Shown one piece after another: positions 6,447-61,400 of a DNA stretch of 64,000 bases. The number at the start of each line of letters is the position of its first letter. The first letter of the stretch is position 1. The DNA is taken from assembly GCA_019119895.1 (NCBI GenBank), contig DWWD01000030.1, positions 1-64,000 of the forward strand. The letters run 5' to 3'. Origin of the DNA: Candidatus Anaerostipes avistercoris. Its GTDB lineage: Bacteria; Bacillota; Clostridia; Lachnospirales; Lachnospiraceae. The translations under genes and the position numbers were made by a program. A model generated the notes under the pieces. That model searched no databases and was not told where the DNA came from. It was given only the letters and a program-made list of their open reading frames with translations.

Positions 6447-6653
6447 GGGCGAAGGAAAGCCTCTGCAGCTATGTATTGATAAAAAAAACACAATATGATA
6501 TTAGTTTCGCAAAATGTGATAAAGTGCAAAATATGCAACAAGAATCTAAGGAGTCCTAATGGATTGAAAAGGCAGATATGCTTGTTTATAATGCATTTTG
6601 TCAATTAACTTCGAAGATTCATTTGGCGAAAAAATTATGGAGGATGAAGCTAT

Positions 6654-7745
<1,092 letters not shown>

Positions 7746-7769
7746 GAACAGGAATAAGAAGGTGAAAAA

Positions 7770-8237
7770 ATGCTGAGAAATGGTTGGAAATCAATATTAT
7801 ATTTAAATGGACTGCAGGTTGCCCAGTATGCGTTTATTGTCATAGCAGCGGTTATAGGAATTGCTGTGTACGGGCTGTATGGGGTAAAATCAGGTGAAAT
7901 ATTTGAAAGTCCTGTACTGACGGTACAGATACTTCTGGTTTTTTCCTATCCTTTCTGCTATTTGCTGTTAAAGAATATACGAAAAAATATGGAAGAAGAT
8001 CCGGATGCTCAGAGAGCACCCCTGTGGTTTCTGCTGATCCTGCAGCTTTCGTCTCTGAATATGGTGATGATTCTACTCTTTGGTTTTGGGATTCTGCAGA
8101 CATATGGGAAATCTTTTTTTACAAAAGAAGCGTTTAAGATATCTCCGCAGAATAGATCACTGATGATCAGTATGATTCCTCTGGCATTTCTCTATGCATT
8201 GATCTTGTTTGTGAGAGTTCGACTGAATATGATATAA
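7770..8237 (+). CDS. Hypothetical membrane protein
   Basis: 155 aa with ~4 hydrophobic segments. Confidence 0.6.
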   Translation: MLRNGWKSILYLNGLQVAQYAFIVIAAVIGIAVYGLYGVKSGEIFESPVLTVQILLVFSYPFCYLLLKNIRKNMEEDPDAQRAPLWFLLILQLSSLNMVMILLFGFGILQTYGKSFFTKEAFKISPQNRSLMISMIPLAFLYALILFVRVRLNMI

Positions 8238-8248
8238 AGAAAAAAGCA

Positions 8249-8287
8249 GAGCCGGCAGGACAGCTTATTTGCTGATCCTGCCGGCTC
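8249..8287. terminator. Terminator hairpin between convergent genes
   Basis: GAGCCGGCAGGA...TCCTGCCGGCTC. Confidence 0.75.
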
Positions 8288-8295
8288 CGTCTTTA

Positions 8296-9057
8296 TTAAG
8301 AATTCTGATTCTGACAATAGAGACAATACTTATAATACAAAAGCTCAATCAGAAATACAAAGGAACTGATTGGAAAGAATTCATAATTGTCTTTCAGATC
8401 CTGTGTCACAAGCGGAGCAAAATTTAAAACCACATGAGCGGATTTTGCCAGAGAAGAATCTGCATTAGCAGTGATCACGATCAGTTTCGGATTTTTCTGA
8501 AGAATTTCTTCCGCATACCGGATGGTCTCCGTATTTTCCCCGCTGACTGAGAAAATAATCATCACATCATCAGGGCGTGCATTGTGTATGAATGTATTCA
8601 TTTCACCGGGTCCGTTCAGCAGATTGATGATCAGGTCCGCTTTAAACATGCCTTCTTTCAATATCTGCATGCCGCTTTTGACAAAAAATCCCTGACCATA
8701 GGCAAAAACACGTTCTGCTTCGAATAAAGTGCGGCATACTTCTGAAAAATCAGTATTCTGCAGAATATGAATGGTGTAAGCATACTGATCGCAGATACTT
8801 CGGACATTCTGCTCGTTTAAAGATGGTTCGGTGTGCAGTTCCTCTTTTAAAAGATATTTCAGATCGCTGTAACCGCTCAGTCCAATTTTCTTGGAAAACC
8901 GAAGGATCGTAGTGCGGGAAACCAGACATTTTTTTGCAAGTGCTTCAATCGAAAGCGTTTCACATTCCTGCTTATGATTTGCAATATAATTCCAGATTAA
9001 AATATCATTTTCATTTAGTTCATCATGGTGCTGAAAAACCAGTTCATTTAATTTCAT
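8296..9057 (-). CDS. RpiR/MurR-family regulator (HTH plus SIS)
   Basis: KKCLVSRTTILRFSKKIGLSGYSDLKYLL HTH and a SIS domain. Confidence 0.87.
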   Translation of the reverse strand: MKLNELVFQHHDELNENDILIWNYIANHKQECETLSIEALAKKCLVSRTTILRFSKKIGLSGYSDLKYLLKEELHTEPSLNEQNVRSICDQYAYTIHILQNTDFSEVCRTLFEAERVFAYGQGFFVKSGMQILKEGMFKADLIINLLNGPGEMNTFIHNARPDDVMIIFSVSGENTETIRYAEEILQKNPKLIVITANADSSLAKSAHVVLNFAPLVTQDLKDNYEFFPISSFVFLIELLYYKYCLYCQNQNS

Positions 9058-9206
9058 TGATGCTCCTCCAATTTATTATGATTATAGCGGATAAGGGGCC
9101 CGATGGCAAATGCTTCAGAGAGTGATGATTTATCTTGACCTGAAGTGAAGTTTAAGTGGTAAAATAAACATATAACAGTTGAGATCATGAAAAGGAGGGA
9201 ATGATC

Positions 9207-10214
9207 ATGTGTGATAAAAAGGCAGTTCCGGGAACCGGAGGAGAACATTATATCCCATATGAAGAACGCACAGGAAACGAATCCATTGTATATTTTACGA
9301 GAGATTTATCTGCTGAGGGATTAAAGAAAATTTATAAAAGAGTCAGTGCGGATCTCTCTGGCAAAGTAGGAATCAAACTTCATACGGGAGAGAAAAACGG
9401 ACCGAACATCATTCCGAGAGAATGGGTGAAAGAACTGGTTCAGGAAGAACTTCCGGATGCTTCTATTATTGAAACGAACACATATTATGAGGGAGACCGT
9501 TATACAACGGAACAGCACAGAGAAACCCTGAAAGTTAACGGATGGGATTTCTGCCCGGTAGATATCATGGATGAAGAAGGCACGGCAATGCTTCCGGTAG
9601 AAGGTGGAAAATGGTTTTCTGAAATGTCTGTTGGAAAGAATCTGCTCAATTACGATTCTATGCTTGCGCTGACCCATTTCAAAGGTCATACACAGGGAGG
9701 TTTCGGCGGATCCAACAAAAATATCGGAATCGGATGTGCCGACGGAAGAATCGGAAAGAAAATAATCCACACGACACCGGGATCCGATGATATGTGGGAT
9801 ATCAAGACAGAAGAATTCATGGAGAGAATGACAGAATCCACGAAAGCATCCATTGATCATTTCGGAAAACAGGTAACCTATATCAATGTGATGCGCAACA
9901 TGTCTGTATCCTGCGACTGTGAAGGATGCGCTGCCATGCCGGTGGTAACGCCGAACATCGGAATCACGGCATCCACAGATATCCTTGCGGTAGACCAGGC
10001 GTCTGTCGATCTTGTATACGCACTGAAAGATGAGGATCACAAAGATCTGGTAGAGCGTATGGAAACCCGTCACGGTCTTCGCCAGCTGACTTATATGAAA
10101 GAGCTGAAGATGGGAAATGACAAATATATCCTGATTGATATTGATAACAATGATGCCCGCATCAGCCTGGAAGACGCGGTAAAAGACGTAAAACCATTTG
10201 TGGATGAAAAATAA
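9207..10214 (+). CDS. DUF362 domain-containing protein
   Basis: GKVGIKLHTGEKNGPNIIPREWVKEL...GFGGSNKNIGIGCADGRIGKK. Confidence 0.8.
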   Translation: MCDKKAVPGTGGEHYIPYEERTGNESIVYFTRDLSAEGLKKIYKRVSADLSGKVGIKLHTGEKNGPNIIPREWVKELVQEELPDASIIETNTYYEGDRYTTEQHRETLKVNGWDFCPVDIMDEEGTAMLPVEGGKWFSEMSVGKNLLNYDSMLALTHFKGHTQGGFGGSNKNIGIGCADGRIGKKIIHTTPGSDDMWDIKTEEFMERMTESTKASIDHFGKQVTYINVMRNMSVSCDCEGCAAMPVVTPNIGITASTDILAVDQASVDLVYALKDEDHKDLVERMETRHGLRQLTYMKELKMGNDKYILIDIDNNDARISLEDAVKDVKPFVDEK

Positions 10215-10232
10215 AAAATTTCATCAGAGAAG

Positions 10233-10276
10233 GAAGAGAAGAGTATCAGACCTGAGTGTCTGATGCTCTTTTTTGG
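10233..10276 (+). terminator. Rho-independent terminator
   Basis: AGAGTATCAGAC ctgagt GTCTGATGCTCTTTTTT. Confidence 0.85.
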
Positions 10277-10464
10277 ACACTTTGTCAGGTAAGAAGATAA
10301 ATTTTTAGAATTTGGGAGTAAAAAGTTTTGACTATTAACGATTGTTTATAACTCTTTTAAATCATTGTTTCTTCTTATTATAAATGGACAGGAGTAAAAT
10401 TATCTTAGAGTGAACACCGTGTGGAAACAGCGTTCTTAAGAAGGAAAGGCAGGAGGAAGAAGAA

Positions 10465-10974
10465 ATGAAGAAAATAGTTGTAATTTATTATTCATGGTCC
10501 AATGGCAATACAAAACGGATCGCAGAGCAGCTGAGCCGGGAGACAGGGGCAGATCTGGTCAGGATTGATACCGTAAAACCATATGAAGGAAGTCATGATG
10601 ATGTGGTGGCTCAGGGACATAGAGAAGTAAATGAAGGATATAAGCCGCAGATAAAACCTGTGGATGTGGATTTGTCACAATACGATATCATTGCGGTAGG
10701 AACGCCGACCTGGTGGTATACCATGGCACCGGCAGTCCATACTTTCCTGGATCAGACGGATTTCACAGGGAAAACGGTGATTCCATTTATGACCAACGGC
10801 GGCTGGCCGGGACATGTGATCAAAGATATGAAAAAAGCCTGCAAAGGAGCCTCTTTTGCGTGTGAAATGGAAATTAAATTTGATTCCTCAGGAGGAGATC
10901 ATCTGGAAACTCCGGAAAAAGACATCGACGCATGGGTCGAGCAGGTAAGAAAAGAAGTGAATCAAAATGCGTAA
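10465..10974 (+). CDS. Flavodoxin
   Basis: VVIYYSWSNGNTKRIAEQL; GTPTWWYTMAPAVHTFLD. Confidence 0.88.
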   Translation: MKKIVVIYYSWSNGNTKRIAEQLSRETGADLVRIDTVKPYEGSHDDVVAQGHREVNEGYKPQIKPVDVDLSQYDIIAVGTPTWWYTMAPAVHTFLDQTDFTGKTVIPFMTNGGWPGHVIKDMKKACKGASFACEMEIKFDSSGGDHLETPEKDIDAWVEQVRKEVNQNA

Positions 10975-11896
10975 AAGCGATAAACAACAGAAAGAAATGG
11001 AAGAAGATTCTGCAGCCAGGGAAGAGGAGATTTTTGCCAATGCGCCTGTTGGAAAGGCTCTCGCGTCTATGATCGTACCAACCATTGTCAGTCAGGTTAT
11101 CATTGTGATTTATAATCTGGCAGATACGTGGTTTGTAGGGCTGACAGAAAATGCAAATGCCGTGGCGGCAGTTTCTCTGTGCCTTCCGGTGTATACGATA
11201 CTTTCAGCCATCAGCAATCTGTTTGGAATCGGAGGCGCAGGATCGCTGCTTTACGATATTGTCAAAGGAGGAATTCCGGGATTCTGTATGGTTGCGCTGG
11301 CGATGTTTTCCAACTGTTTCCTGAATTCTATAATATCCACTTTGGGAAGCGAGGCAGTCGCAGGAATCGGAATTGTCCGCAAGATCGACCAGCTTGCCTA
11401 TGCAGTGAACCAGGGAGTGACGCAGGGAATGCTTCCTCTGGTGGCATACTGCTATTCTTCCGGAAGAAGATCCAGAATGTGGAAGGCAGTAGGAATATCA
11501 GCAGTATTTTCAGAAGGATTTTCGTTGATCTGCATGGCAGTTTCACTGATTTTTTCCAATGAGTTAATTACAATCTTTATCCGGGATCCGAAAACAATTT
11601 ATTTCGGAGCAGAATTTCTGCGGATTTTATGTCTGGCGGTGCCGCTTTATACTCTCACTTTCGTGATCACTGCAGTATTTCAGGCGGTGGGACGAGGTGT
11701 GGAACCGTTTGTTTTGTCCGTTCTTCACAAAGGCTCACTGGATATTGTGCTTTTATTCATTTTGCGCCTGCTGGCAGGCGTGGAAAGAATTTTGTGGGCA
11801 GCGCCGACTGCCGAAATGATCGCACTGATCACGGGAATCATCATGCTTGCGGCATTCTGGAAGAAGTTAAATATGAAGTATGCGCAGGTGCGTTGA
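10967..11896 (+). pseudogene. MATE-family efflux pump with a large internal in-frame deletion
   Basis: VPTIVSQVIIVIYNLADTWFVG...NLFGIGGAGSL joined to YDIVKGGIPGFCMVALAMFSNCFLN; 309 aa versus ~450 typical. Confidence 0.8.
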
Positions 11897-12014
11897 CGGT
11901 GTCTCTGCGGCTGTGATAGACTGAAAATACAAGGGTTTTCCTTATGACAGGATGAGGAAGATCTTTGTATTTTTTGTTATTGGAATAGATTTTACTGAAT
12001 GTAAGAGGAATGTT

Positions 12015-12689
12015 ATGACAGAAATATATTATGTAGAAGATGATGAAGATATTGCAGGGATTGTAAAAGAATATCTTGAATCACGAACTTTCAAAGTGAC
12101 GCTTTACAGGGCTGCAGAGGAAGTAAAAGAATCACTGGGAAAACAGCGTCCGGATCTTATTTTGCTGGACTGGAATCTCCCGGATGAAGAAGGCAGCCGG
12201 CTTTGCCGGTGGATCCGCTCCAGATGGCAGGAGCTGCCGCTGATGTTTCTAACGGTCAGGAATGAAACAAAGGATATTGTAAAAGGGTTTCAGAATGGCG
12301 CAGATGACTATGTGGAAAAGCCATTTGAATTGGAAGTTCTGTATTCGCGCATCTGTGCCCTGCTTCGGAGAGCAGGGAATGTTCCCGGGCAGACGGTGAT
12401 ATCCTGCGGGAATCTGACCATTGATAAAGAAAAAATGATGGTATTCTGCGGCGGACAGGAGGTTTCCGTGAGCCGGTCAGAATATCAGATGCTTCTTATT
12501 TTGATGGAACATAAGGGAATGACAGTGACAAGGCAGAGACTGCTGGAAAAAATATGGGATGAAAATGGAAATTTTGTGAATGACAATACACTGACTGTCG
12601 CCATGAAACGTCTGCGTCAGAAGCTGAACCAGCCGGCATGTATCAAAACCATAAGGAGTTTTGGGTATCGTATGGAGGATGAAATATGA
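12015..12689 (+). CDS. OmpR-family response regulator
   Basis: Receiver (VEDDEDI, LLDWNLPD, VEKPFE) plus winged HTH. Confidence 0.92.
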   Translation: MTEIYYVEDDEDIAGIVKEYLESRTFKVTLYRAAEEVKESLGKQRPDLILLDWNLPDEEGSRLCRWIRSRWQELPLMFLTVRNETKDIVKGFQNGADDYVEKPFELEVLYSRICALLRRAGNVPGQTVISCGNLTIDKEKMMVFCGGQEVSVSRSEYQMLLILMEHKGMTVTRQRLLEKIWDENGNFVNDNTLTVAMKRLRQKLNQPACIKTIRSFGYRMEDEI

Positions 12690-13858
12690 CAGAACGGAAA
12701 ATTAAGATTCTAATGGGGCTTGCCGCTTTTCTTATTGTCTGTTCTGTCTCTGCTTTTGCAATGTATCAGTATCAGGCGAGAGAACAGTACAGACTGCTGG
12801 ACGCTTTTTGTGAAAGACTGCAGGAAGAACGGCCAGATGTGGAACAGACTATGCTGGAAATTATCAAAGAGAAAGATGTTCTGAGAGAATCCGAAACTTC
12901 GGGATATCTGGAAACTTTTGGATATACTCCGTCGGATCTGGGATGGAATCGGGGAATTTTCCTGAAAAGTGCGGGCGCAGGGCTTCTGACAGGAGGAATT
13001 CTGCTTTTCTGCGGATTCATATACTGGAGAAGGAATATATTTCAGAGAATCCGCATCCTGACAGATGATCTTGAAAAAATGAATCAGGGAGATTCTGTTC
13101 TGCTTCGAAAAGAGGCAGAGGGAGAGTTTTCAAAACTGCAGGATGAGATTTATAAAACTGTTACGTCACTGCAGCAGACGCGGGATTATGCGGTCAGAGC
13201 GAAAAATCAGTTTGCGGATCATCTTTCCAATATTGCCCATCAGCTGAAAACGCCGGTAACATCCATTTCTTTGTCTCTTCAGATGCTGCAGAAGACGAAT
13301 TCTTCTAAATATATTCTTCAAATAAAAAGACAGCTGAACCGATTAAAATATCTGGAAGAAGCACTGCTTCTTCTCGCCCGTATTGATGCAGGGACGCTTG
13401 TTCTGAAAAAAGGGAAAACCGATGTTTTTACCCTGCTGATGCTGGCGGCGGATAATTTACAGGAATTGTCCGTACAATATGGCGTTTCTATCGATGTTTT
13501 AAAGACAGAAGAGGCAGATATTTCGGCAGATCCGGAGTGGACCATGGAGGCAGTGATAAATCTGATGAAAGACTGTATGGAACACAGTCCCGAAGGAGGC
13601 AGAGTTTACTGTACTTATGAAAAAAATCCATTGTATATACAGATAAATATATGGGATGAAGGACCGGGTTTTCCGGAAGAAGATATCCCTTATTTATTTG
13701 ACCGGTTTTTCAGGGGCAAAAATGCGAAAAAAGACAGCATAGGAATCGGACTTTCGATTGCAAGGGAAATAATAGAGATGCAGGACGGAGTTGTAAGGGC
13801 GTACAATCGTCCACAGGGAGGTGCCTGTTTTGAGATCAGGATGTATCAGAGGGAATAG
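12686..13858 (+). CDS. Sensor histidine kinase
   Basis: 2 TM, HAMP-like region, SNIAHQLKTPVTSI H-box, HATPase GIGLSIAREI. Confidence 0.92.
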   Translation: MTERKIKILMGLAAFLIVCSVSAFAMYQYQAREQYRLLDAFCERLQEERPDVEQTMLEIIKEKDVLRESETSGYLETFGYTPSDLGWNRGIFLKSAGAGLLTGGILLFCGFIYWRRNIFQRIRILTDDLEKMNQGDSVLLRKEAEGEFSKLQDEIYKTVTSLQQTRDYAVRAKNQFADHLSNIAHQLKTPVTSISLSLQMLQKTNSSKYILQIKRQLNRLKYLEEALLLLARIDAGTLVLKKGKTDVFTLLMLAADNLQELSVQYGVSIDVLKTEEADISADPEWTMEAVINLMKDCMEHSPEGGRVYCTYEKNPLYIQINIWDEGPGFPEEDIPYLFDRFFRGKNAKKDSIGIGLSIAREIIEMQDGVVRAYNRPQGGACFEIRMYQRE

Positions 13859-13930
13859 CCTCTGATATGTCACCGGAATGTCATTTTTCTTTGTTATGAT
13901 AAGAAAAACTAAGGTTGAAGGAGGAAGAAA

Positions 13931-14611
13931 ATGGAGATTCTCAGGTGTGAAGGCGTAACAAAAGAATTTGGAAAGGGAGAAAATCAGGTAACTGCCCTGA
14001 GCGGAGTGAATCTGTCAGTGGAACAGGGAGAATTTGCGGCAGTGGTTGGCAGATCAGGATCAGGAAAATCCACGCTTCTGCATATCCTTGGGAGTGTGGA
14101 CAGACCGACAGAAGGATCTGTCATAGTGGATGGAGTGGATCTGGGAACATTAAATGCCGCTGAATCGGCAGTCTTCCGGAGAAGAAAGATAGGTCTGGTC
14201 TATCAATTTTATAATCTGATCCCTACATTGACCATTGAAAAAAATATTTTGATGCCCCTGCTTTTGGACAAGCGAAAACCGGAACAGGAATATTATGAAC
14301 AAATCATAAGGACGCTGGGGCTGGAGGAAAAGCGAAATATGCTCCCATATCAGCTGTCCGGAGGGCAGCAGCAGAGAGCTGCCATTGCAAGAGCTCTGAT
14401 TTACCGTCCGGCTATTTTGCTGGCCGATGAGCCTACCGGGAATCTGGATCGAAAAAATTCCAGAGAAATCATGGATTTGATAAAAGTATTTCACAGGAAT
14501 CTGAAGCAGACAATCCTGCTGATTACTCATGATGAAACATTTGCTTTGGAAGCGGACCGCATCATTACCATGGAAGATGGACACATCATCGCAGATCAGA
14601 GCAGGAGGTAG
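13931..14611 (+). CDS. ABC transporter ATP-binding protein (MacB/Bce-like)
   Basis: GRSGSGKSTLL, LSGGQQQRAAIARAL, LLADEPTGNLD. Confidence 0.94.
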   Translation: MEILRCEGVTKEFGKGENQVTALSGVNLSVEQGEFAAVVGRSGSGKSTLLHILGSVDRPTEGSVIVDGVDLGTLNAAESAVFRRRKIGLVYQFYNLIPTLTIEKNILMPLLLDKRKPEQEYYEQIIRTLGLEEKRNMLPYQLSGGQQQRAAIARALIYRPAILLADEPTGNLDRKNSREIMDLIKVFHRNLKQTILLITHDETFALEADRIITMEDGHIIADQSRR

Positions 14612-14614
14612 GAT

Positions 14615-16804
14615 ATGTGGAAGAATTATTCAGAAGGTTATCTGAAACATAACCGAAAAACCTGTATTTCTATTATGACGGCAGCATTCGGTGCCATGAT
14701 GTTTTTGTCACTGATCTGTACTATAGCTTTTAATTTATGGAAATACGAGATTGAGCGGATTGAACTGGAAGAGGGAGGCTGGCAGGGACGGATTATTTCT
14801 GAACTCAGTGAAAATGATATAGAGAAAATTCAGCAGTTTAAGGATGTAGAGCGGGCAGAGATAAATAAAGATTTATCGGATGAGAAGACAGTGATAGATA
14901 TTTATTTCAAAAATATGCGGACAATATACAGCGATATGCCCGAAATTGCCGGGTATCTTGGGGTGGAAGAAGAGGAAATCCAATACCATGCACGGCTGCT
15001 GTCCTGTTATTTTATTACAGATCCGCAGGATAAAGAACCGCCTTTGCTTCTGCCGTTTTTTGCAGTCATTCTGTTTTTCATTTGTCTGTCGCTGATTCTT
15101 ATTATCAGGAATTCCTTTGAAATCTCAATGAGATCAAGAATCCGTCAGTTTGGAATTCTCTCAGGCATTGGCGCCACACCCAGACAGATCCGGATCTGTC
15201 TCCTTCAGGAAGCGGCAGTGCTGAGCATTCTGCCGATTCTTCTGGGAACGGCGGCGGGAATCGGAGGCAGTTTTGGCATCATAAAAGCAGTCAATCATTT
15301 TGCTGAAAATGTGGCCGGGAGACATCCGGCTGTATTTCAATATCATCCCCTGATATTACTGATTTCCCTTTTCCTTGCCGCAGTCACCGTATTTTTGTCC
15401 GCATGGATTCCTGCGGGGAAATTAAGCCGGATGACGCCGATGGAAGCTGTGAGAAACGCGGAGGGACTCCATTTGAAAAAAAGAAAGCGTTCTATGATCC
15501 TGTCCGGAATTTTTGGAATCAGAGGAGAATTGGCCGGAAATGCACTGAAGGCGCAGAACAGGGCTTACAGGATTTCCAATGTGTCTCTGGTTTTGTCATT
15601 TTTAAGTTTCACTTTGATGATGTGCTTTTTTACTCTGTCTGATATCAGTACACGTTATACGTATTTTGAGAGATATCAGGATACATGGGATGTTATGGCA
15701 GAAATCAAAGATACAGAGCTTGCTGATTTTGACCGGATGCAGGAAATCAGGGAGCTTCCGGGAATCCGGGACAGTATTTTATATCAGAAAGCGGAAATGC
15801 GCATTTCTCTGCCCCGGGACTGGCAGAGCCGTCAGCTGCTGGCGCTGGGCGGGCTGGAAGCTCTGACAGGAAATGAGGCTGAGAAAGACAGGCAGGGAAA
15901 TGACACCGTGACATCGCCGGTCATTATTATGGATGATGAGAGTTTTCTGAAATACTGCAGACAGATCGGAGCATCTCCGGAACTGGACGGCGTTGTTGTC
16001 CTGAATCGTATCTGGGACAGCAAAAACAGCAATTTCAGGAACAGAAAATACATTCCGTTTGTAAAGGAAAATAAAACGGCAGCGTCTGTTGATGAAGAGG
16101 GCGAAGAATCAAAAGAAATTCCTATCCTGGCGTATACGCAGGATGAGCCGAAGCTGCGGGAAGAATACGCGGATTATGCTCTGGTACAGTTTATGCCCCT
16201 TTCTCTGTGGAAAAACATAGGAGATCATACCGGGGAGACGTCGGCATATGTTCGGATTCTGGGGCGTCAGGGAATTGATCTTAAGGAATGCAGTTCGATA
16301 GAAGCCGGAATAGAAAAAATATTGGACACATCTTACGATTATGAAATAGAAAACCGTATCCAGGAAAGAATATCAAATGAGGAAATGCTTCAGGGAGCAA
16401 AAATGATCATCGGAGGATTCTGCATTCTGATTGCAGTCATCGGAATTGCCAATATATTTTCTGTGACGCTGGGATTTGTACAACAGAGAAAAAGAGAATT
16501 TGCCCAGTATCTGTCAGTTGGAATGACACCAAAGGATATGCGCAGCGTATTTTGTATGGAAGCTTTTGTAACGGCAGGACGTCCGATTCTGATCACGGTT
16601 CCTCTGACTGCGGCAGCGGTCACATTCATGATTGCAGCAAGTCATCTGGATCCTGAGGTATTTGTGCGGGAAGCACCGGTGGTTCCAATGCTGATATTTG
16701 CGGCAGCAATCATAGTTTTTGTGGCTCTGGCATATTATATCGGAGGCAGAAGGGTTTTAAACTGTGATTTGAGTGAAATTTTGAAAGATGATACGCTGAA
16801 TTGA
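14615..16804 (+). CDS. FtsX-like ABC transporter permease
   Basis: 729 aa with repeated FtsX-type TM blocks (RQFGILSGIGATPRQIR; REFAQYLSVGMTPKDMR). Confidence 0.9.
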   Translation: MWKNYSEGYLKHNRKTCISIMTAAFGAMMFLSLICTIAFNLWKYEIERIELEEGGWQGRIISELSENDIEKIQQFKDVERAEINKDLSDEKTVIDIYFKNMRTIYSDMPEIAGYLGVEEEEIQYHARLLSCYFITDPQDKEPPLLLPFFAVILFFICLSLILIIRNSFEISMRSRIRQFGILSGIGATPRQIRICLLQEAAVLSILPILLGTAAGIGGSFGIIKAVNHFAENVAGRHPAVFQYHPLILLISLFLAAVTVFLSAWIPAGKLSRMTPMEAVRNAEGLHLKKRKRSMILSGIFGIRGELAGNALKAQNRAYRISNVSLVLSFLSFTLMMCFFTLSDISTRYTYFERYQDTWDVMAEIKDTELADFDRMQEIRELPGIRDSILYQKAEMRISLPRDWQSRQLLALGGLEALTGNEAEKDRQGNDTVTSPVIIMDDESFLKYCRQIGASPELDGVVVLNRIWDSKNSNFRNRKYIPFVKENKTAASVDEEGEESKEIPILAYTQDEPKLREEYADYALVQFMPLSLWKNIGDHTGETSAYVRILGRQGIDLKECSSIEAGIEKILDTSYDYEIENRIQERISNEEMLQGAKMIIGGFCILIAVIGIANIFSVTLGFVQQRKREFAQYLSVGMTPKDMRSVFCMEAFVTAGRPILITVPLTAAAVTFMIAASHLDPEVFVREAPVVPMLIFAAAIIVFVALAYYIGGRRVLNCDLSEILKDDTLN

Positions 16805-25152: not shown

Positions 25153-25286
25153 AAGAAAACCCTCCTTTAAAATATGATTAGAGTATTGCCGGAAAGAGGG
25201 AAAATATACCAGGAGAAGAGAGGAAAGACGGAAATATCAAGAAAATGAATTGACAAATGTTCCCGCCCTCGCTTATAATAACTCAA

Positions 25287-25548
25287 TAGGCGATGAAGGA
25301 GAAAAGTAACATGGATTATCGTTTCCAGTGAGCAGGGGATAGTGAGAACCCGCAAAGTGAATTCATGCGAAGAACACTCTGGAGCATCAATCTGAACACC
25401 GGCGGGACCGCCGGACAAGTAGGTGCGACGTAGGTCTGGCGTTAACAGACAGGCAAGAGAGACTGTATCAGCAGTAAATCAGGTGGTACCGCGGACTGGA
25501 TCATACAAGTTCGTCCTGAAAGACAATTTCAGGACGGGCTTTTTTTAT
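25287..25548 (+). promoter_or_regulatory. T-box leader upstream of aspS
   Basis: AGGTGGTACCGCG T-box sequence (25481-25493), then terminator GTCCTGAAA gacaa TTTCAGGACgggcTTTTTTT, immediately upstream of aspartyl-tRNA synthetase. Confidence 0.92.
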
Positions 25549-52846: not shown

Positions 52847-52889
52847 AATTTGAATATAATTTATAAATTTGTTGTCATAAAATAAAGAA

Positions 52890-53001
52890 GGAAACAACCG
52901 CCGTGAGCGGTTTGACCTGTATAAACTGGGAAACCACCCTGTTGGTTAAAGTTTAAGGGATGGAAGAAAGAGTCGATTAATGTCAGACTCTTTCTTTTTT
53001 T
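52890..53001 (+). ncRNA. Candidate structured RNA with Rho-independent terminator (identity unknown)
   Basis: Hairpin AACCGC-cgtga-GCGGTT; hairpin AAACT..AACCA-ccctgt-TGGTT..AGTTT whose loop CCCT can pair with downstream AGGG; terminator AAGAAAGAGTC...GACTCTTTCTTTTTTT. Confidence 0.5.
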
Positions 53002-53136
53002 GGATAGACTGGTCGGGCGTCCGCCGTGCCTGCATAATTGCTGCTTTGAAGCCTGCTCCTAAAATTATTAGGAGCAGGTCTTAAGGGAAATATAGTAAAA
53101 TTTAGATAAGATAATGATTAAAAAGGGAGGGATCAT

Positions 53137-53733
53137 ATGGCAATTGTACAGTGCCCCAGAGGACATAATTATGACAATTCAAAACACGCCCAGTGTCCAT
53201 ACTGCAGCGGAAGCCAGGCAATCGGAATTACAGTACCGCTGATGGAAGCAGAAACAGGCGGAGAGTTTCCAAGAACATCACCGATGAACCAGCAGACAGG
53301 AGGAATGCAGTATTCATATCCGGGAAGAGAAATCGGGAAAACAGAACCTTATCAAAATGTAACGCAGGGGCTGGATATTAATGAAGAAGGCATTTCCGCG
53401 GTTACAGGGTGGCTTGTATGCATTGAAGGTAAAAAGAAGGGAAAAGATTTTCGGCTTCACGGAGAACGCAATTTTGTGGGAAGAGCCGGATCCAATGATG
53501 TTGTGCTGGACTTTGACGATAAAATCTCATCCGTGGCGAATATCATTATTTCCTATGACGATGAGGAAAATGAATTTTATGTCCAGCCTGGAGAAAATCA
53601 GAAGAATAATGTAAAGGTGAACAATAAGCTGCTGCTGATACCACAGATTCTGAATGATAACGACATCATACGTCTTGGAGAAACCAAACTTCTGTTTCGA
53701 AGATTTTGCAATGATGATTTCAGTTGGGAGTGA
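53137..53733 (+). CDS. FHA domain protein with N-terminal zinc-ribbon-like motif
   Basis: CPRGHNYDNSKHAQCPYC; C-terminal FHA-like VGRAGSNDVVLDFDDKISSVANIIISYDD. Confidence 0.8.
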   Translation: MAIVQCPRGHNYDNSKHAQCPYCSGSQAIGITVPLMEAETGGEFPRTSPMNQQTGGMQYSYPGREIGKTEPYQNVTQGLDINEEGISAVTGWLVCIEGKKKGKDFRLHGERNFVGRAGSNDVVLDFDDKISSVANIIISYDDEENEFYVQPGENQKNNVKVNNKLLLIPQILNDNDIIRLGETKLLFRRFCNDDFSWE

Positions 53734-53737
53734 TGAA

Positions 53738-54595
53738 ATGTTTGGAAGGAGACGGCGCAGAAAGAAAAAAATAACAAAAACAGTAGAAATTCCAGCCGCT
53801 TTTGACAATCTGATCACGGTAGATTTTCAGGGAGTCAGAATAGAATATCAGATTGGAAATGCCCAGCATATCGGAAGCAGAAAAAGACAGGAAGATTCAT
53901 TCGGATTTTCGGATCTTTCAGATGATATTCTTTTGAAAGAGAGGGGAATCTGTGCGGTTTTGGCAGATGGCATGGGCGGTCTGGACTTAGGAAGAGAAGT
54001 CAGCGAACAGGTTGTGAGAGAAACACTGGAGTTCTTTCGAAACATGAATTATCAGGTTTCGATCAGTGAGCAAATGATTTTGTTTTTTCAGAAATTCAGT
54101 CAGCAGATATTTTCAAGATACGGGCGCAGTGGAAAAGCAGGAGCCGGCTCAACCGTTCTTATGGTTGTACTGTATGGAGGACGGGTTTACTGGTGCGCCA
54201 TTGGTGACAGCCGGCTGTATCTGTGGCGCAGAAACCGCCTTTATCAGATGAATGAGGATCACAATTATAAAAATGAACTCATGGGGCAGTATATTTCAGG
54301 AGAAGGAACATTAGAGGAAGCAGCACGAAATCCAAAAAAGGATTTTCTGACAAATTATATAGGATGTCCGGAAACCGTACGGGCAGATGTGAGTTATACA
54401 GGATTTGCCCTTCAAAACGGAGATAAGATCCTGATGGCTACGGATGGATTGTACCATGCGCTTTCTCAGGATGAAATTGCAGAAAAAATGAGAAAGAATC
54501 CGCAGGATGCCTGTACGGAAATGATTCAGGAAGCGGTATCAAGGAAAATTTCAGGGCAGGATAATATGACGGCAATGGCGGTGGGTTTTAATTAG
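53738..54595 (+). CDS. PP2C-family Ser/Thr phosphatase
   Basis: QHIGSRKRQEDSF, LADGMGGLDLGREVSE, AIGDSRLYLWR, SGQDNMTAMAV. Confidence 0.9.
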   Translation: MFGRRRRRKKKITKTVEIPAAFDNLITVDFQGVRIEYQIGNAQHIGSRKRQEDSFGFSDLSDDILLKERGICAVLADGMGGLDLGREVSEQVVRETLEFFRNMNYQVSISEQMILFFQKFSQQIFSRYGRSGKAGAGSTVLMVVLYGGRVYWCAIGDSRLYLWRRNRLYQMNEDHNYKNELMGQYISGEGTLEEAARNPKKDFLTNYIGCPETVRADVSYTGFALQNGDKILMATDGLYHALSQDEIAEKMRKNPQDACTEMIQEAVSRKISGQDNMTAMAVGFN

Positions 54596-54608
54596 CAGGA
54601 GGAGATGT

Positions 54609-55820
54609 ATGAAAAAAAGTATAAAGACAGCGGTTATGGTATTGACTGCTGCAGTGATTCTGATTTTGTGGCAGCCTGGACAGGCGCAGGCGGCAACGCC
54701 TTCAGAAGCGAAGGATAGTGTTGTGTGCATTGCGACGGCAGATGAAAACGGACAGCTTCTGGGATGGGGATCCGGATTCGCCATTGGAAAGCCGGGTGAT
54801 GAGGTGCAGTATATTGCGACAAATTATCATGTCGCTCAGCCGACAGACAAATATGGGGAAGAAATATCCTGCAGCCGGACTGTCTATTTTTCAGCGGCGG
54901 CAGGACGGTCTATGACTGCGGAATTATACTGGTCCAGTGAGGAGCATGATCTGGCAGTTTTAAGACTGCCTGAGCCGACCGATGAAAGAGAGGCAATGGT
55001 ACTGTGTCCTATGGATGAAGTAGATCTGGATGATGATTACGCGGCGCTGGGATATCCGGCAGCATCTATGGCGGCGGATATTGTAAAATTTGATCAGAGT
55101 GATATTTCTGTTACCAGAGGAGGAATCTCCAAGCAGGTTCGTGTAAATGGAACAGATTGTTATCTGGTGGACATTGACATCAGTCAGGGAAATTCCGGAG
55201 GTCCGCTGGTGAATTCCAAAGGCCAGGTTGTGGGAATCAATTCCTTTATGATCGGGGACAACGCCAGATATGCCATAGCCATCGATGAACTGATCCGGAA
55301 TCTGGATCCGGACCAGATTCCGTATACTGTGGCAGGAAGTCTGACAACCAGAATTCTGATCGGAGTGGGAATTGCAGCGGTGATCATTGTGATAATTGCA
55401 GCAGTAATTCTTATAAAAAGAAAAAAGAGAAAAGGTGGAAAAAACCGAGCAGCTTCAGCTGGAGAAATGAAAGGAAATGAAAGGAAAATCCGGACGGTTC
55501 CAAAAGGAAATGCAGCAGTGCTGATGGCAGGGCCGGCGAGTCCGCTGGCGAACCGGAAATTCAGGATCGGAGGACCAGTGAAAATCGGACGGGATGGAAC
55601 CAGATGCAAAATTGCTTTTCCGGTTGATACGAAGGGAGTCAGCGCAGTTCACTGTGAAGTGGAAGCCAGTGAAGATGGCATTGTCGTAAGGGACCTTGGA
55701 TCTACGTATGGAACTTTTTTGTTAGACGGAACGAAACTTGAAAAAGGACAGAGCAGAAAACTTCATTCCGGAGATGCGTTCTATCTGGCTGGTGAAGATA
55801 ACTGGTTCGAGGTACGGTGA
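54609..55820 (+). CDS. Secreted trypsin-like serine protease domain, TM, cytoplasmic FHA domain
   Basis: Signal peptide; NYHVAQ, EEHDLAVLRL, QGNSGGPL triad; TM ILIGVGIAAVIIVIIAAVIL; FHA KIGRDGTRCKIAF...VSAVHCEVE...STYGTFLLDG. Confidence 0.9.
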   Translation: MKKSIKTAVMVLTAAVILILWQPGQAQAATPSEAKDSVVCIATADENGQLLGWGSGFAIGKPGDEVQYIATNYHVAQPTDKYGEEISCSRTVYFSAAAGRSMTAELYWSSEEHDLAVLRLPEPTDEREAMVLCPMDEVDLDDDYAALGYPAASMAADIVKFDQSDISVTRGGISKQVRVNGTDCYLVDIDISQGNSGGPLVNSKGQVVGINSFMIGDNARYAIAIDELIRNLDPDQIPYTVAGSLTTRILIGVGIAAVIIVIIAAVILIKRKKRKGGKNRAASAGEMKGNERKIRTVPKGNAAVLMAGPASPLANRKFRIGGPVKIGRDGTRCKIAFPVDTKGVSAVHCEVEASEDGIVVRDLGSTYGTFLLDGTKLEKGQSRKLHSGDAFYLAGEDNWFEVR

Positions 55821-55821
55821 T

Positions 55822-56562
55822 ATGGACAAGATAGAAGTGTTTGCATATACAAATCCCGGTGGAAGAGAAGATAATGAAGATTACTGTAATTTCAATATAC
55901 AGAAGGGGAAAGCATACTTTGTTCTGGCAGATGGTCTGGGCGGACATGAAGATGGAGAAATTGCATCTCAAAGAGCCGGCAGTTATCTGATGGAACGCCT
56001 GGGAGAAGAAGAAACGACAGGGGAAAATTTATCGGAAATATTAAAGGATACCAATCAGTGGGTGATAAAAGGACAGCAGGAGTATCCGCAAATGAGAACT
56101 ACAGCGGCAGTTGCCTATATACAGGGCGGATATTTCCGGGAAACACACGCCGGGGACAGCAGAATTTATCTGTTTAAAAATGGATGTCTTTATTTCCAGT
56201 CCAGAGATCATTCGGTTGTTCAGCTTCTGGCGGAGATGGGGGAGATTGAACCGGAGGAAATTCGTTTCCATCCGGACCGGAGTAAATTATTAAAAGCCCT
56301 GGGAGATGATAAGAAACTTAAAATACCGGAAAATCCAGAGCCAATCCTGCTGGAACCTAATGATGCCTTTTTGCTGTGCAGTGACGGTTTCTGGGAATAT
56401 GTATGGGAAACAGAAATGGAAATAGATCTCACCAAATCCAGATTGCCGCAGGAATGGGTCTCATTTATGCTGAAACGGCTTCTGAACCGTGTTTCAGGAG
56501 ATTATGACAATATTACAGTAATTGCAGGAATGGTCAGGGGAACAGAGATGGGAGGTGACTGA
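55822..56562 (+). CDS. PP2C-family Ser/Thr phosphatase
   Basis: NPGGREDNEDYC, LADGLGGHEDGEIASQ, HAGDSRIYLFKNG, LCSDGFWEYV, DYDNITVI. Confidence 0.93.
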   Translation: MDKIEVFAYTNPGGREDNEDYCNFNIQKGKAYFVLADGLGGHEDGEIASQRAGSYLMERLGEEETTGENLSEILKDTNQWVIKGQQEYPQMRTTAAVAYIQGGYFRETHAGDSRIYLFKNGCLYFQSRDHSVVQLLAEMGEIEPEEIRFHPDRSKLLKALGDDKKLKIPENPEPILLEPNDAFLLCSDGFWEYVWETEMEIDLTKSRLPQEWVSFMLKRLLNRVSGDYDNITVIAGMVRGTEMGGD

Positions 56563-56563
56563 A

Positions 56564-59122
56564 TTGCATCAGATTGATGATTTATATTTATGTGAGAATT
56601 GCTTTTCGATGATGGAGCCAGGAGAGAAGAGATGTTCTGTCTGCGGATTTGAGAAAGAGAACTATCAGCCGGAAACAGAAGAACTTGCTGTGGGAGAAAT
56701 ACTGGCAGGAAAATATCTGATCGGAAAGATGCTGGGACGGGGAGGTTTCGGAATTACATATCTTGGCTATGATATTCAGGGAAAGAAAAAGGTTGCTATT
56801 AAGGAGTATATGCCTTCGGGTCTTGCTTCCCGGCAGCCTGGCCAGACAGGACTTTCGATTTATTCCGGGGAGCGGATGGAATTATTTGAAAAAGGGGCGC
56901 ACCGGTTTTATGATGAAGCAAAAATGGTGTCTCGTTTTAATGGAAATCCCAATATTGTTTCCGTTTACGAATTTTTCTATGAAAACCAGACTGCCTATTT
57001 TGTCATGGAATATCTGGATGGAATGGACCTGAAACATTATACTGTGGAACGGGGAGGAAGAATTCCGGTAAAAGAAGCCCTGGAGATGATGATGCCGGTT
57101 TTGGATGCACTGGCCATCGTGCACAGTGCCGGAGTGCTTCACAGAGATATTTCACCGGACAATATTTTCCTGACAAAAGATCATCAGGTAAAATTGATTG
57201 ATTTTGGAGCAGCAAGGCAGGTCATCGGAGAGGGGAGCAAGAGTATTTCAGTTGTTGTGAAACAGGGATTTGCGCCGATTGAACAGTATCAGAGTCATGG
57301 CAGATTTGGACCATGGTCCGATGTTTATTCTTTTTGCGCTACTTTTTATTTTATGATAACCGGCGAAGTGCCGGAAGCAGCTATGGACCGAATGGATCTG
57401 GATCAGCTGATGGCGCCTTCTGATATGGGAGTGGATATTCCCAAACCTTTGGAAGCTGTACTCATGCATGGCATGGCATACCGGCCGGCGGACAGAATCC
57501 AGAATGTCATAGAATTGAAAGCTGCTTTTCAGCAGGCAGCATCCGGAGAAATACCTCAGGAATTTAAAACGGAAACGGTTTATGTAAATCCATATTCCAA
57601 TAGTGAAGGATATGGGAACAGCAGGAGCCAGAATGGATATTATGGGAATTCAGGGGGACAAAACAGCGATGTCCGGTCTGATATGGAACCAAGTACAGAA
57701 TATGGCATCTTTCAATTTGAGAAGAATGAGGCATATTATCGCAGTGAATTTGCAAAACTGGAGGAAGGAAAACGGGGGAAATTTCATATTCCGGCATGTT
57801 TTCTCTCATTTTACTGGATGTTTTACCGGAAAATGTTTGCAGAAGGCGGAATTCTGATGGCGGTATTTCTGATATTGTCAATTCTGAGCTCCGTGATTGG
57901 AAGAACTACAGGAAATGCAGCTGCCGCAGGCGTGATTTATACGGTAATCGGAATTGGAATTGCGGCTGCATGCGGATTTCTTGGGAATAAAATTTACTAC
58001 AGATATTATCAGAAAATAAACAAAGAAGCACAGGAAAAAGGAAACTGGGTTTATAAAAAGCGAAGCGGGATTCTGAAGGGCGGACCTCTTGCAGGGACGG
58101 TGGCAGGAGCTGCCGTCGTGTGTATTCTGATTTCCGGAGGAACTGCTTTTCTCATGGGAACCGGAGAAGGAGTCCGGCAGGGTACCGGGGATGCTGCATC
58201 CGTGGGAGCTCCTGCTCTGACTGGAGACGAGGAGGATCAAAGACTAATCAAGATAGTAAAAGACCAGACATATCTGGAAGAAGAAAGTAATAAAACGAAT
58301 GATGAAGTCATGGGGCTGTATTTTGATAATCCTGCATGGAGTGTAGAGGAAGATGAGGATACCGGGAAAAAACAGGTCATTTTTGAAGGTGAAGGATTCT
58401 ATGCGCATCAATGGAAAAAATATCAGTTTGTTTATGAATTGGATGGAGATGAAGCCGAAATGGTAAAATTCAGTGTAGATGGGGATGAGTTGAGGGAAAG
58501 CAGCTGGGGAACATTTTTGCGCAGTATTTATTCTCAGTATGAACATATGGATTCCAGATCGCTGAAAGAGGTAAAATATAGATTCTTTGTCAATACAGTG
58601 TCTCACACAACCCTTGATGAAGCTGAATTTTATCTCCGCAAAGCAAAGATTAATTATAAAACTTCAACGAACAAAAGTGGAGAGAAGAAAACAATTTCTA
58701 CAGATGAGAGCGATGAAACGTATGTATTTTATAAAATGAAAAAGGACATAGATCGGTTTATAACGCAGGGAAATTATATTTTGATCGTCAAAGGAGATGA
58801 AGCGGATGCAGGCGCGTTTCTGGAATATTGTATGGGATGGAGCCAGTCTGCGAAAACGAATTTTTATGGAGGAACCAGTGAGAAACGAATTCAGGAATCT
58901 TCTCTGAAAGAAAGAACGGAGACGGAGATGGATATCATAAAAAATGAAATCTATGCAAGACATGGAATGCAGTTTGACGATCCGCTTATGAACGCATTGT
59001 TTTCTACTAAGGATTGGTACAATGGAAGATATGATGAGGACAGCTTCAGGGGAAATTGGAATTCTGCAGAACAGTATAATTTAAATCTGATTGAAAAAGT
59101 AGAAAAAGAGTTAGGGTATTAA
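56564..59122 (+). CDS. Ser/Thr protein kinase with zinc ribbon, DUF2628-like membrane region and C-terminal YARHG domain (TTG start)
   Basis: CENCFSMMEPGEKRCSVCGFE; GRGGFGITYLGYD; HRDISPDNIFL; LIDFGAARQ; TM segments; NEIYARHGMQFDDPLMNALFSTKDWYNGRY. Confidence 0.93.
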   Translation: MHQIDDLYLCENCFSMMEPGEKRCSVCGFEKENYQPETEELAVGEILAGKYLIGKMLGRGGFGITYLGYDIQGKKKVAIKEYMPSGLASRQPGQTGLSIYSGERMELFEKGAHRFYDEAKMVSRFNGNPNIVSVYEFFYENQTAYFVMEYLDGMDLKHYTVERGGRIPVKEALEMMMPVLDALAIVHSAGVLHRDISPDNIFLTKDHQVKLIDFGAARQVIGEGSKSISVVVKQGFAPIEQYQSHGRFGPWSDVYSFCATFYFMITGEVPEAAMDRMDLDQLMAPSDMGVDIPKPLEAVLMHGMAYRPADRIQNVIELKAAFQQAASGEIPQEFKTETVYVNPYSNSEGYGNSRSQNGYYGNSGGQNSDVRSDMEPSTEYGIFQFEKNEAYYRSEFAKLEEGKRGKFHIPACFLSFYWMFYRKMFAEGGILMAVFLILSILSSVIGRTTGNAAAAGVIYTVIGIGIAAACGFLGNKIYYRYYQKINKEAQEKGNWVYKKRSGILKGGPLAGTVAGAAVVCILISGGTAFLMGTGEGVRQGTGDAASVGAPALTGDEEDQRLIKIVKDQTYLEEESNKTNDEVMGLYFDNPAWSVEEDEDTGKKQVIFEGEGFYAHQWKKYQFVYELDGDEAEMVKFSVDGDELRESSWGTFLRSIYSQYEHMDSRSLKEVKYRFFVNTVSHTTLDEAEFYLRKAKINYKTSTNKSGEKKTISTDESDETYVFYKMKKDIDRFITQGNYILIVKGDEADAGAFLEYCMGWSQSAKTNFYGGTSEKRIQESSLKERTETEMDIIKNEIYARHGMQFDDPLMNALFSTKDWYNGRYDEDSFRGNWNSAEQYNLNLIEKVEKELGY

Positions 59123-59132
59123 TGGAATAAGA

Positions 59133-59166
59133 AATGAGCGGGCGATGTCCCGCTCATTCTTTTTCC
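59133..59166. terminator. Terminator hairpin between convergent genes
   Basis: AATGAGCGGG cgatgt CCCGCTCATTCTTTTT. Confidence 0.85.
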
Positions 59167-59735
59167 GAGAAAATATGGATCAGGTCTTTATATTTTTTCA
59201 ATCCCAGTTTTTTAAGAATTGCCGTCTTTTGATTGGCAATGGTTTTTGAAGAAGAATGCAGTGTCACAGACTTTCCGGTCAGCATATCAAACACAGACCG
59301 CTCCGCAGGAGACAGAGGAGCAAGGACAGCGGAACGGATCAGATGCTGCTGCGGCGTGCTGCCATGGGCAGTATTTCGGATAATCTCCTCAAGACCCTTA
59401 AACTGGCTTTTGAAAACATAGGCGGAGGCAAAGCATCCGGTACAGGCTTCCAGAATGATATCAGAATCCTCAAATGCAGTCAGAATCACGATTTTTGCGT
59501 CTGTCTGCAGCCGGATTTCTTTTCCGATTCTGATACCGTCCAGACCGCCGGATGAAAGATTCAGATCCAGAAGGACAATATCCGGCTGATATTTTTTGGC
59601 AAGGGACAGAGCCTGGAACCCATCGGAACACTGCCCTACCACCTGAAAGTCTTTTTGCTTTTCCAGAGTTTTTCGAATCAGATAACAAAAATCTGCATCA
59701 TCTTCTATCATAAGTATTTTAATCATCTTTTTCAT
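59154..59735 (-). CDS. Response regulator with LuxR-like HTH
   Basis: MIEDDADFCYLIRK, VLLDLNLSSGGLDG; LSPAERSVFDMLTGKSVTLHSSSKTIANQKTAILKKLGL. Confidence 0.85.
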   Translation of the reverse strand: MKKMIKILMIEDDADFCYLIRKTLEKQKDFQVVGQCSDGFQALSLAKKYQPDIVLLDLNLSSGGLDGIRIGKEIRLQTDAKIVILTAFEDSDIILEACTGCFASAYVFKSQFKGLEEIIRNTAHGSTPQQHLIRSAVLAPLSPAERSVFDMLTGKSVTLHSSSKTIANQKTAILKKLGLKKYKDLIHIFSEKE

Positions 59736-59754
59736 TGTAGAATCCTCACTTCTG

Positions 59755-61290
59755 CTATTTTTTTAATTTACGCGGCCTGACAGGGAAGTAAAGAGAAAAA
59801 ACAGACCCTTTGCCCGGCGTGCTGTTTACCTTAATCATTCCCCGATGTTCCTTCATAACTTTGTTACAGTAATAGAGGCCAAGACCGAGATGGTGATTGG
59901 AAATTTTTGTCGTATGGTATGGCTCGAACAAATACGGAAGCTCTTCTTTGGTAATGCCGCAGCCGTTATCCTGTAAATGGATGACGATAAATCGATATTT
60001 CCGCCGGCAGGTAATCTTAAGAATGCCATTGGACGAAAATGATTCAAAAGCATTTCCGATCAGATTATTAAAGACTTCCAGGACATGAGTTTTGTCGCAA
60101 AAAAGAATTATATCATCCGGGCATTCAAGGATGATCTCTGCTTTTCCCTTCATATCATCCGGTATTCCGGCCGCCGCTTCACTGAGCAGATCAAGGAGGC
60201 AGACAGCCTGGATATCCAGAGAAATCTGATTGGAATAAAACTTTGTTTTCTGTACAAAATGTGTAAGATGAGAGGCAGAGCGGTCCAGGATTTCCAGCTC
60301 TTCCGGTGATTCCGACGGAAATTTCTCCCTGAGCATAGAAGTACACCACTGAATCTTCAAAAGCTCATTCTTCAGGGCATGACTGATATACTGTGCATTC
60401 TTCTGGACGATACTATCGTCGATCGTCCAGTCATAAGTTTCTCTTCTGAGCCTTGTGCCGAGAATCCCGTCCCGGAACAGATTGATGATACAGAAAATCA
60501 GCAGGAGAAAAACAATAAAAATATTGCCCTGCCATATTTTGAAAAAAGGACGCAGATTCAGAAGATGTACTACAAAAGCGCTGAACAGCCAGTACCAGAG
60601 CGGCGGCAGAGTAACAATACAGACCAGTTTTTTCTGTTTGCGGCTTCTCTGATTTTGTTCATGAGTCAGACTGCTCAGAAGAAAAAAAGTAACGATAATT
60701 CCATAAATCCAGTTATAGCAGGCTGCGATGGAATAATAGGCAGGATCTTCCAGCTGAAAAAATCTTGTATTCGTAATCGGATAGATGACCGACAAAAGTA
60801 CACCCGGGACAAAAATAAGATAACGCAGCCAGGAAAATATGTTCGGATGTCTTAAATGAAAACCGTTGAAATAGAAACTGAACATAATAGAACAAGGCAG
60901 CGCAAAATAATATAAAACTCCCGTCAGTACGGAATACAGCATATAAGAAAGGTCCGCATTGTAAAAAGAAAATCTGGAAATTAAAACAGGATCCAGCGTG
61001 AAGTAAATATATTCTTTTAATACGCCCATGCTGAAGCAGAGTCCTGCGATCGCGCACCATTGATTGGAGCGGTTCTGGCGGTTGGAAAAATAAACCAGAA
61101 GAAACAGGGACCATATGAGCATGGTAAATAACAGCAGTATATTTCCAGGAAATCCCTCCGACACATTTCCATTCATTTCATATAACCTCCGGGATAAAAA
61201 TAACCATAGCTGATTTAATCTTAAAATATTTTCAGCGGATTGTCTATTTGAAACAGAGCAGGAATTCCCAAAAAACATAGGAGCCCTCAA
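59755..61290 (-). CDS. Sensor histidine kinase with multi-TM N-terminus
   Basis: Multiple TM; QYISHALKNELLKIQW H-box-like; HATPase LQDNGCGITKEELPYLFEPYHTTK, HLGLGLYYCNKVMKEHRG. Confidence 0.87.
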   Translation of the reverse strand: MRAPMFFGNSCSVSNRQSAENILRLNQLWLFLSRRLYEMNGNVSEGFPGNILLLFTMLIWSLFLLVYFSNRQNRSNQWCAIAGLCFSMGVLKEYIYFTLDPVLISRFSFYNADLSYMLYSVLTGVLYYFALPCSIMFSFYFNGFHLRHPNIFSWLRYLIFVPGVLLSVIYPITNTRFFQLEDPAYYSIAACYNWIYGIIVTFFLLSSLTHEQNQRSRKQKKLVCIVTLPPLWYWLFSAFVVHLLNLRPFFKIWQGNIFIVFLLLIFCIINLFRDGILGTRLRRETYDWTIDDSIVQKNAQYISHALKNELLKIQWCTSMLREKFPSESPEELEILDRSASHLTHFVQKTKFYSNQISLDIQAVCLLDLLSEAAAGIPDDMKGKAEIILECPDDIILFCDKTHVLEVFNNLIGNAFESFSSNGILKITCRRKYRFIVIHLQDNGCGITKEELPYLFEPYHTTKISNHHLGLGLYYCNKVMKEHRGMIKVNSTPGKGSVFSLYFPVRPRKLKK

Positions 61291-61400
61291 AGATCAAAAC
61301 CGTGAGTCTTTTTTGCTTTACTTGAAGAAAAACAAATCTTATAATGAAAGAAAGAGAACGGAAGCTGACGGAGAAAAGTACCTGGAGAGGGCAGAAATAT

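Follow-up and report, generated by a model that had tools for sequence, protein, structure and literature searches.

A putative phosphothreonine-signalling operon with a predicted transmembrane protease-FHA protein in Candidatus Anaerostipes avistercoris

The five-gene operon and its products

We analysed a 64,000-nucleotide stretch of the Candidatus Anaerostipes avistercoris genome (contig DWWD01000030.1, positions 1 to 64,000; the window) and focused on a run of five genes within 53137-59122. The five open reading frames (ORFs) lie on the same strand (+) and encode, in order, a zinc-ribbon protein with an FHA domain (FHAzr), a PP2C phosphatase (PP2Ca), a trypsin-like protease joined through a transmembrane (TM) helix to an FHA domain, a second PP2C phosphatase (PP2Cb) and a Ser/Thr kinase. 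ORF calls and Pfam searches bear out the gene order and domains given in a preliminary description of this DNA, as well as its operon-like spacing, with gaps of 4, 13, 1 and 1 bp in gene order. See Table 1 for the coordinates and domain matches of all features. A promoter scan gave sites no more frequent than in shuffled sequences, and Rfam returned no matches upstream of the operon (52.80-53.20 kb), even at E 0.1. The sole Rfam match of the window is a T-box leader at 25284-25521.

The third gene encodes the protease-TM-FHA protein. An AlphaFold model of it has a pLDDT (predicted local distance difference test) of 84.6, with a disordered linker at residues 276-299. Because the protein has a signal peptide and a single TM helix, the latter followed by KRKKRK, the protease domain is predicted to lie outside the cell and the FHA domain inside, which supports, as a prediction, the topology proposed in the preliminary description. 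A Foldseek search indicates that the closest PDB folds of the protease domain are DegQ, DegS and Deg5; RsgI9 is also among the sequence and fold matches of the protein. The window copy has the complete catalytic triad and, as read from sequence, looks active. Its FHA domain keeps the conserved Gly-Arg, Ser and His, with Arg at a position shared by Arg and Lys in the family. The cysteines of the protease, considered as possible disulfide partners, seemed common only to the copy from the same genus.

We then compared 36 trypsin-TM-FHA proteins. The triad is complete in 31, including the window copy, and the FHA motif has Gly in 36/36, Arg in 30 with Lys in the other 6, Ser in 35/36 and His in 36/36. 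Since the FHA residues are more constant than the triad, reading of phosphothreonine (pThr) would be the constant feature of these proteins and catalysis dispensable in a minority. The losses, in which Ser and/or His is gone and the FHA residues are retained, fall in one tandem copy (L027) and in a divergent clade (L048, L049, L050 and L053). The tandem copy (L027, 7781-9271) has degenerate His and Ser and intact FHA residues and sits beside an intact copy, making it a natural pseudoprotease. By analogy with RsgI9, the ectodomain of such versions may be a pure sensor. A further variant (L144, 9412-11583) is a single polypeptide of trypsin domain, TM helix, kinase-like C-lobe lacking HRD (a pseudokinase), second TM helix and ectodomain; it belongs to a genome (G378) that also holds the full cluster.

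The FHA domain of FHAzr ends in the F-x-W/Y motif of its family. Among 20 FHAzr relatives, the zinc ligands are kept in 20, the FHA Arg in 19, the Ser in 20 and the His in 12. The window FHAzr keeps Arg and Ser and has Asn in place of the His, so that pThr reading by this protein is uncertain in this organism. The preliminary description had counted a writer, two erasers, two readers and a protease. The writer, both erasers and the protease-FHA protein stand; the second reader is doubtful. Both phosphatases carry the ADGMGG/ADGLGG, GDSR and DN motifs and score above the PP2C_2 cut-off, and both fall under the Stp1 equivalog cut-off. A tree built from 54 PP2Cs divides the phosphatases of the 5′ position from those of the 3′ position with support 100/98 across the phylum, with few positional exceptions. 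As the two subfamilies keep their positions, we take the two erasers to be old, distinct subunits.

The kinase consists of an N-terminal zinc ribbon, absent from the preliminary description, followed by the kinase domain, a DUF2628 region with three TM helices, and an ectodomain ending in YARHG. Its VAIK, HRDISPDN and IDFG motifs mark it as a Hanks-type kinase, and its architecture places it among the YARHG/DUF2628 receptor kinases. The three TM helices lead us to predict that YARHG lies outside. PASTA repeats were not found in the kinase, which scores 164 bits against a cut-off of 450 for NCBIfam NF033483. Folded alone, the ectodomain gave an uninformative model (pLDDT 42.8), and no relative of solved structure was found for it. 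Across loci, the C-terminal parts of the kinases are swapped, and comprise YARHG, DUF5050, MORN repeats, a beta-lactamase-like domain (L141) and RDD-FHA.

Table 1. Features of the operon and the adjoining genes in the window
Feature	Position	Strand	Evidence or remark
Inserted block: five-gene operon and convergent two-component pair	53034-61310	.	boundaries approximate
FHAzr	53137-53733	+	N-terminal C-H-C-C zinc ribbon and C-terminal FHA; Pfam FHA 1.1e-7
PP2Ca, 5′ subfamily phosphatase	53738-54595	+	Pfam PP2C_2 4.5e-10
Signal peptide-trypsin-like (S1C/DegS-like) protease-TM-FHA	54609-55820	+	Pfam Trypsin_2 4.6e-23, FHA 5.1e-13
Predicted extracellular protease domain, aa 31-239	54699-55325	+	
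Catalytic triad	His74 54828-54830; Asp114 54948-54950; Ser196 (GNSGG) 55194-55196	+	
TM helix, aa 245-274	55341-55430	+	then basic residues, disordered linker; model and sequence
Predicted cytosolic FHA, aa 303-402	55515-55814	+	Gly327-Arg328, Ser345, His348
PP2Cb, 3′ subfamily phosphatase	55822-56562	+	Pfam PP2C_2 9.6e-10
Ser/Thr kinase, TTG start	56564-59122	+	Pfam Pkinase 2.1e-35, DUF2628 2.5e-8, YARHG 6.9e-14
YARHG domain of kinase ectodomain	58877-59107	+	Pfam
Terminator hairpin at operon end	59133-59158	+	
Response regulator, travels with cluster	59154-59735	-	Response_reg 5.2e-17; adjacent in G300 too
Membrane histidine kinase, travels with cluster	59755-61290	-	HATPase_c 1.9e-20

Conservation and mobility of the cluster

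Searches with the protease matched 10/299 genomes of the same family (1e-20), 17/391 of the class (1e-30) and 5/399 of the phylum (1e-40), the source genome being counted in each set. With so few matches per set, the trypsin-TM-FHA gene is present in a few per cent of genomes. A scan of genome contigs with the single protein returned nothing; the pattern taken from an alignment shrank to GNSGGPLV and returned 80 loci, mostly ordinary HtrA-type, of which L056 and L057 alone were taken as full-length relatives.

Next, we drew gene maps of the loci using purpose-made domain profiles. The first 23 trypsin-TM-FHA genes were mapped in full: all 23 have a PP2C nearby, 19 have two, 22 have a kinase and 20 have FHAzr. 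The single case lacking a kinase lies on a contig of 6.5 kb. Overall, a PP2C is near 33 of the 36 genes, which are drawn from Clostridia and from further classes of its phylum; one of the remaining three (L171) stands alone, and the other two (L049 and L050) have a visible flank of 1.5 kb only. The usual order is FHAzr, PP2Ca, trypsin-TM-FHA, PP2Cb and one or more kinases, and three loci outside the class (L168-L170) still carry the cluster. Thus the synteny is conserved in Lachnospiraceae and beyond, and the signalling cluster of the preliminary description stands on this count.

The accessory genes vary and include vWA-TM-FHA, PrsW-like metalloprotease-FHA, RDD-FHA, dynamin-FHA and ABC genes. 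One relative of the cluster (L028, 11271-18338) has a PrsW-like protease-FHA gene and a dynamin-FHA gene adjoining a bacterial dynamin, an arrangement that may tie membrane remodelling to pThr reading. Between the window and the copy in a second genome of the genus (G300), identity is 79% in the protease domain, 73% in the kinase domain, 65% in FHA, 54% in YARHG and 36% in the remaining ectodomain. This gradient fits a stable core whose sensor varies.

The preliminary description had called the locus an island, and it is one in the strict sense, as a congener has the empty site. DNA alignment to the sister genome G299 ends at 53033 and restarts at 61311, and in G301 the flanking genes are ~44 bp apart. 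The same spot in G299 holds a gene for an 821-aa secreted coiled-coil protein. The interval 52847-61343, between the NUDIX and sugar-binding-protein genes, is a variable insertion spot; in G305 it holds other genes, including one for a secreted protein. Two of the 11 genomes of the genus, the window's genome and G300, carry the cluster, and the other 9 lack it. The G300 block is at a different site, with the NUDIX gene (present in 11/11) ~1.2 Mb away from the cluster. The histidine kinase next to the operon occurs in the same two genomes only and adjoins the cluster in both. The two-component pair (59154-61290), transcribed convergently, is a possible partner for cross-talk.

The protease tree puts the window copy among proteins of families f20, f21 and f62. 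A tree keeping the main protease rows of its own family together was rejected with a p-AU (approximately unbiased test) of 7e-34, a value to be read knowing that the tested group was picked once the PP2C tree was known and that some branches are long. The PP2C tree likewise places the window with foreign families (f14, f20, f21 and f62). These trees suggest transfer between families and, together with the presence of the same block at different sites, they indicate that the operon appears to move as a unit.

A candidate mechanism and its alternatives

We tentatively propose, at a little below an even chance, that the five genes form one transmembrane pThr-signalling cassette in which the kinase, acting through FHA, controls how an envelope protease is recruited or clustered and the two PP2Cs reset the system. 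With its ectodomain (here YARHG), the kinase would sense a cue in the envelope or outside the cell, autophosphorylate and then phosphorylate partners on Thr. The cytosolic FHA domain of the anchored protease would dock on such pThr, for which the kinase itself is the simplest candidate. Docking would cluster or position the DegS-like protease domain outside the cell, and phosphorylation in the cytosol would thereby govern the cutting of a substrate in the envelope. Both the writer and the docking site would be reset by the two phosphatases, and FHAzr could serve as a soluble scaffold. In favour of this proposal are the conserved synteny, the two PP2C subfamilies with their fixed positions, the nearly invariant FHA residues and the mostly intact triad, the high identity of the protease domain and low identity of the kinase ectodomain between the two congeners, the swapped kinase C-terminal parts and the trypsin-TM-pseudokinase fusion of G378. 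We infer the coupling between protease and FHA, and the sequence data fit this inside-out direction as well as the outside-in one suggested in the preliminary description.

Our favoured guess for the substrate is a cell-wall one, a hydrolase precursor on the pattern of RipA, the substrate of MarP. Several indirect lines point to a role at the cell wall. YARHG has been hypothesised to bind peptidoglycan (PMC3355149), the kinase of L141 has a beta-lactamase-like ectodomain, and MarP, a membrane-anchored periplasmic trypsin-like protease, cuts the wall hydrolase RipA (PMC6628586). Furthermore, in the G300 copy (L033) a gene for an N-acetylmuramoyl-L-alanine amidase (15101-15928; Amidase_3 4.9e-42) directly follows the kinase, with an L,D-transpeptidase-like gene just beyond the block; an RDD-FHA membrane protein (11809-12570) precedes the kinase there. 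Two observations weigh against the proposed mechanism. Catalytic residues are missing from five of the 36 proteases, which means that not every version of the system needs catalysis, and of the two copies in the genus only that of G300 has the amidase.

The signal could instead run from outside to inside, with the protease-like ectodomain binding or cutting a ligand, altering the availability of FHA inside and feeding the kinase/PP2C pathway; proteolysis itself would perhaps be unnecessary. The match to RsgI9, whose protease-like domain binds polysaccharide (PMC12203970), points this way, as do the L027 tandem copy and the divergent clade. However, the window triad is intact and no other part of the protein is as well conserved as the protease domain, and a single-pass TM helix followed by a disordered linker is a poor conformational relay. 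We regard this outside-in signalling as possible but rather unlikely. Whether the cassette works inside-out or outside-in, it may represent a widespread class in Clostridia that joins extracellular proteolysis and intracellular pThr recognition in one polypeptide, with a dedicated kinase, two phosphatases and interchangeable ectodomains, a generalisation that we advance with some hesitation and at somewhat less than an even chance.

A conflict or defence system, in which a mobile kinase/phosphatase/protease module responds to phage or rivals, is improbable. The block is mobile, lies at a variable site and seems to be transferred between families, and Ser/Thr kinase, PP2C and trypsin modules are known in NTP-dependent conflict systems (PMC7159879). 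PADLOC also gave generic matches, of the kinase to PD-T4-6 and mad6 and of the protease to RT-Protease_XI. These reflect shared kinase and protease domains only, however, and no defence model or set is matched over its full length; moreover, the block has no NTPase, nuclease or toxin, and the protease and YARHG are predicted to face outside.

It is very improbable that the operon is an accessory regulator of a secretion system like Fha/PpkA/PppA in the type VI secretion system (T6SS), although FHA and kinase proteins control T6SS in Gram-negatives (PMC3953482). The genome has no match to the sheath protein VipB/TssC (PF05943), which refutes a T6SS regulator. A regulator of a type VII secretion system (T7SS) is unlikely, as no WXG100 protein scores above cut-off in the genome; among the genomes compared, WXG100 is above cut-off in 3/20 that carry the cluster, leaving 17/20 with none, and in 4/22 others. 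The preliminary description was thus right that no T6SS or T7SS genes are nearby, and its "free-standing" label goes too far, given that a two-component pair travels along and the genome has a second FHA-rich kinase cluster. Finally, other kinase clusters in the genome might hint at a chance or loose gathering of unrelated phospho-signalling genes with no joint function, an idea that we give almost no weight. Conserved synteny rules out chance, and a loose gathering is strongly disfavoured, as order and the two PP2C subfamilies are kept across families and classes and the block appears to move as a unit.

Relation to known systems and other clusters in the genome

The operon resembles PknB-PstP-FhaA of Mycobacterium in having a membrane kinase with an ectodomain, a PP2C eraser and FHA readers, but in the window a reader is fused across the membrane to a protease, there are two PP2C subfamilies and zinc ribbons, and PASTA is absent. 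In the mycobacterial system, PknB signalling bears on the cell wall. HtrA, DegP and DegS (S1C), the last a membrane-anchored stress-signalling protease, have the protease fold and His-Asp-Ser triad in common with the window protein, which differs in having no PDZ domain and an FHA domain across the membrane and scores far under the NCBIfam cut-offs. RsgI9 of Clostridium thermocellum is likewise a clostridial transmembrane signalling protein whose ectodomain is of the S1C type. Unlike the window protein, it acts as an anti-sigma-I factor: its N-terminus is intracellular, its C-terminal protease-like region senses sugar, and it lacks FHA. MarP is likewise a trypsin-like protease held outside by an anchor in the cytoplasmic membrane (PMC6628586), but it has four N-terminal TM helices, whereas the window protein has a signal peptide, one TM helix after the protease and a cytosolic FHA. 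Against the MarP model NF033740, the window protease scores 60.8 bits, below the cut-off of 250.

The Firmicute protein B0MGE2, probably from Anaerostipes, would fit the genus. Its kinase-TM-DUF2628-YARHG architecture, shared by the window kinase, has been known since 2012 (PMC3355149); neither "FHA" nor "phosphatase" occurs as a word in that article, and therefore the cluster is not reported there. GAP1-N2 conflict systems also have a zinc-ribbon kinase adjoining PP2C and vWA, but they are centred on a GTPase and the theme is restricted to actinobacteria (PMC7159879). The window cluster has no GTPase; its constant partner is trypsin-TM-FHA, and vWA-TM-FHA occurs in some loci only. Together with the mycobacterial FHA/PknB circuits and these linked kinase-PP2C-vWA genes, Fha switching in T6SS (PMC3953482) is among the nearest conceptual kin.

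In the open-access literature, to which the search was confined, we found no description of the five-gene combination. Each domain is already known; what would be new is a surface protease fused to a cytosolic pThr reader within a dedicated kinase/phosphatase operon. If the proposed mechanism is true, it provides a direct route between cytosolic phosphorylation and envelope proteolysis. The cluster is found in Clostridia of several families and appears to be mobile in one piece, and the modularity of its ectodomains suggests one core serving many signals. It also offers a specific context in which kinases with YARHG, DUF5050, MORN and DUF2628 regions can be tested.

The same genome holds a second phospho-signalling cluster (L009, G000:C23:147000-166000; 6458-15506) without trypsin-FHA. 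It contains vWA-TM-FHA, kinase-FHA, PP2C, FHAzr, TM-FHA, an FHA-FHA-ABC transporter and another TM-FHA. The FHA-ABC protein is reminiscent of Rv1747. Elsewhere (L184, G000:C46:85000-104900; 6984-12922), three membrane kinases in a row are followed by a YARHG protein and a vWA-like protein. An FHA protein of this genome (L010, 8275-9453) also lies inside a Tad-pilus-like gene cluster.

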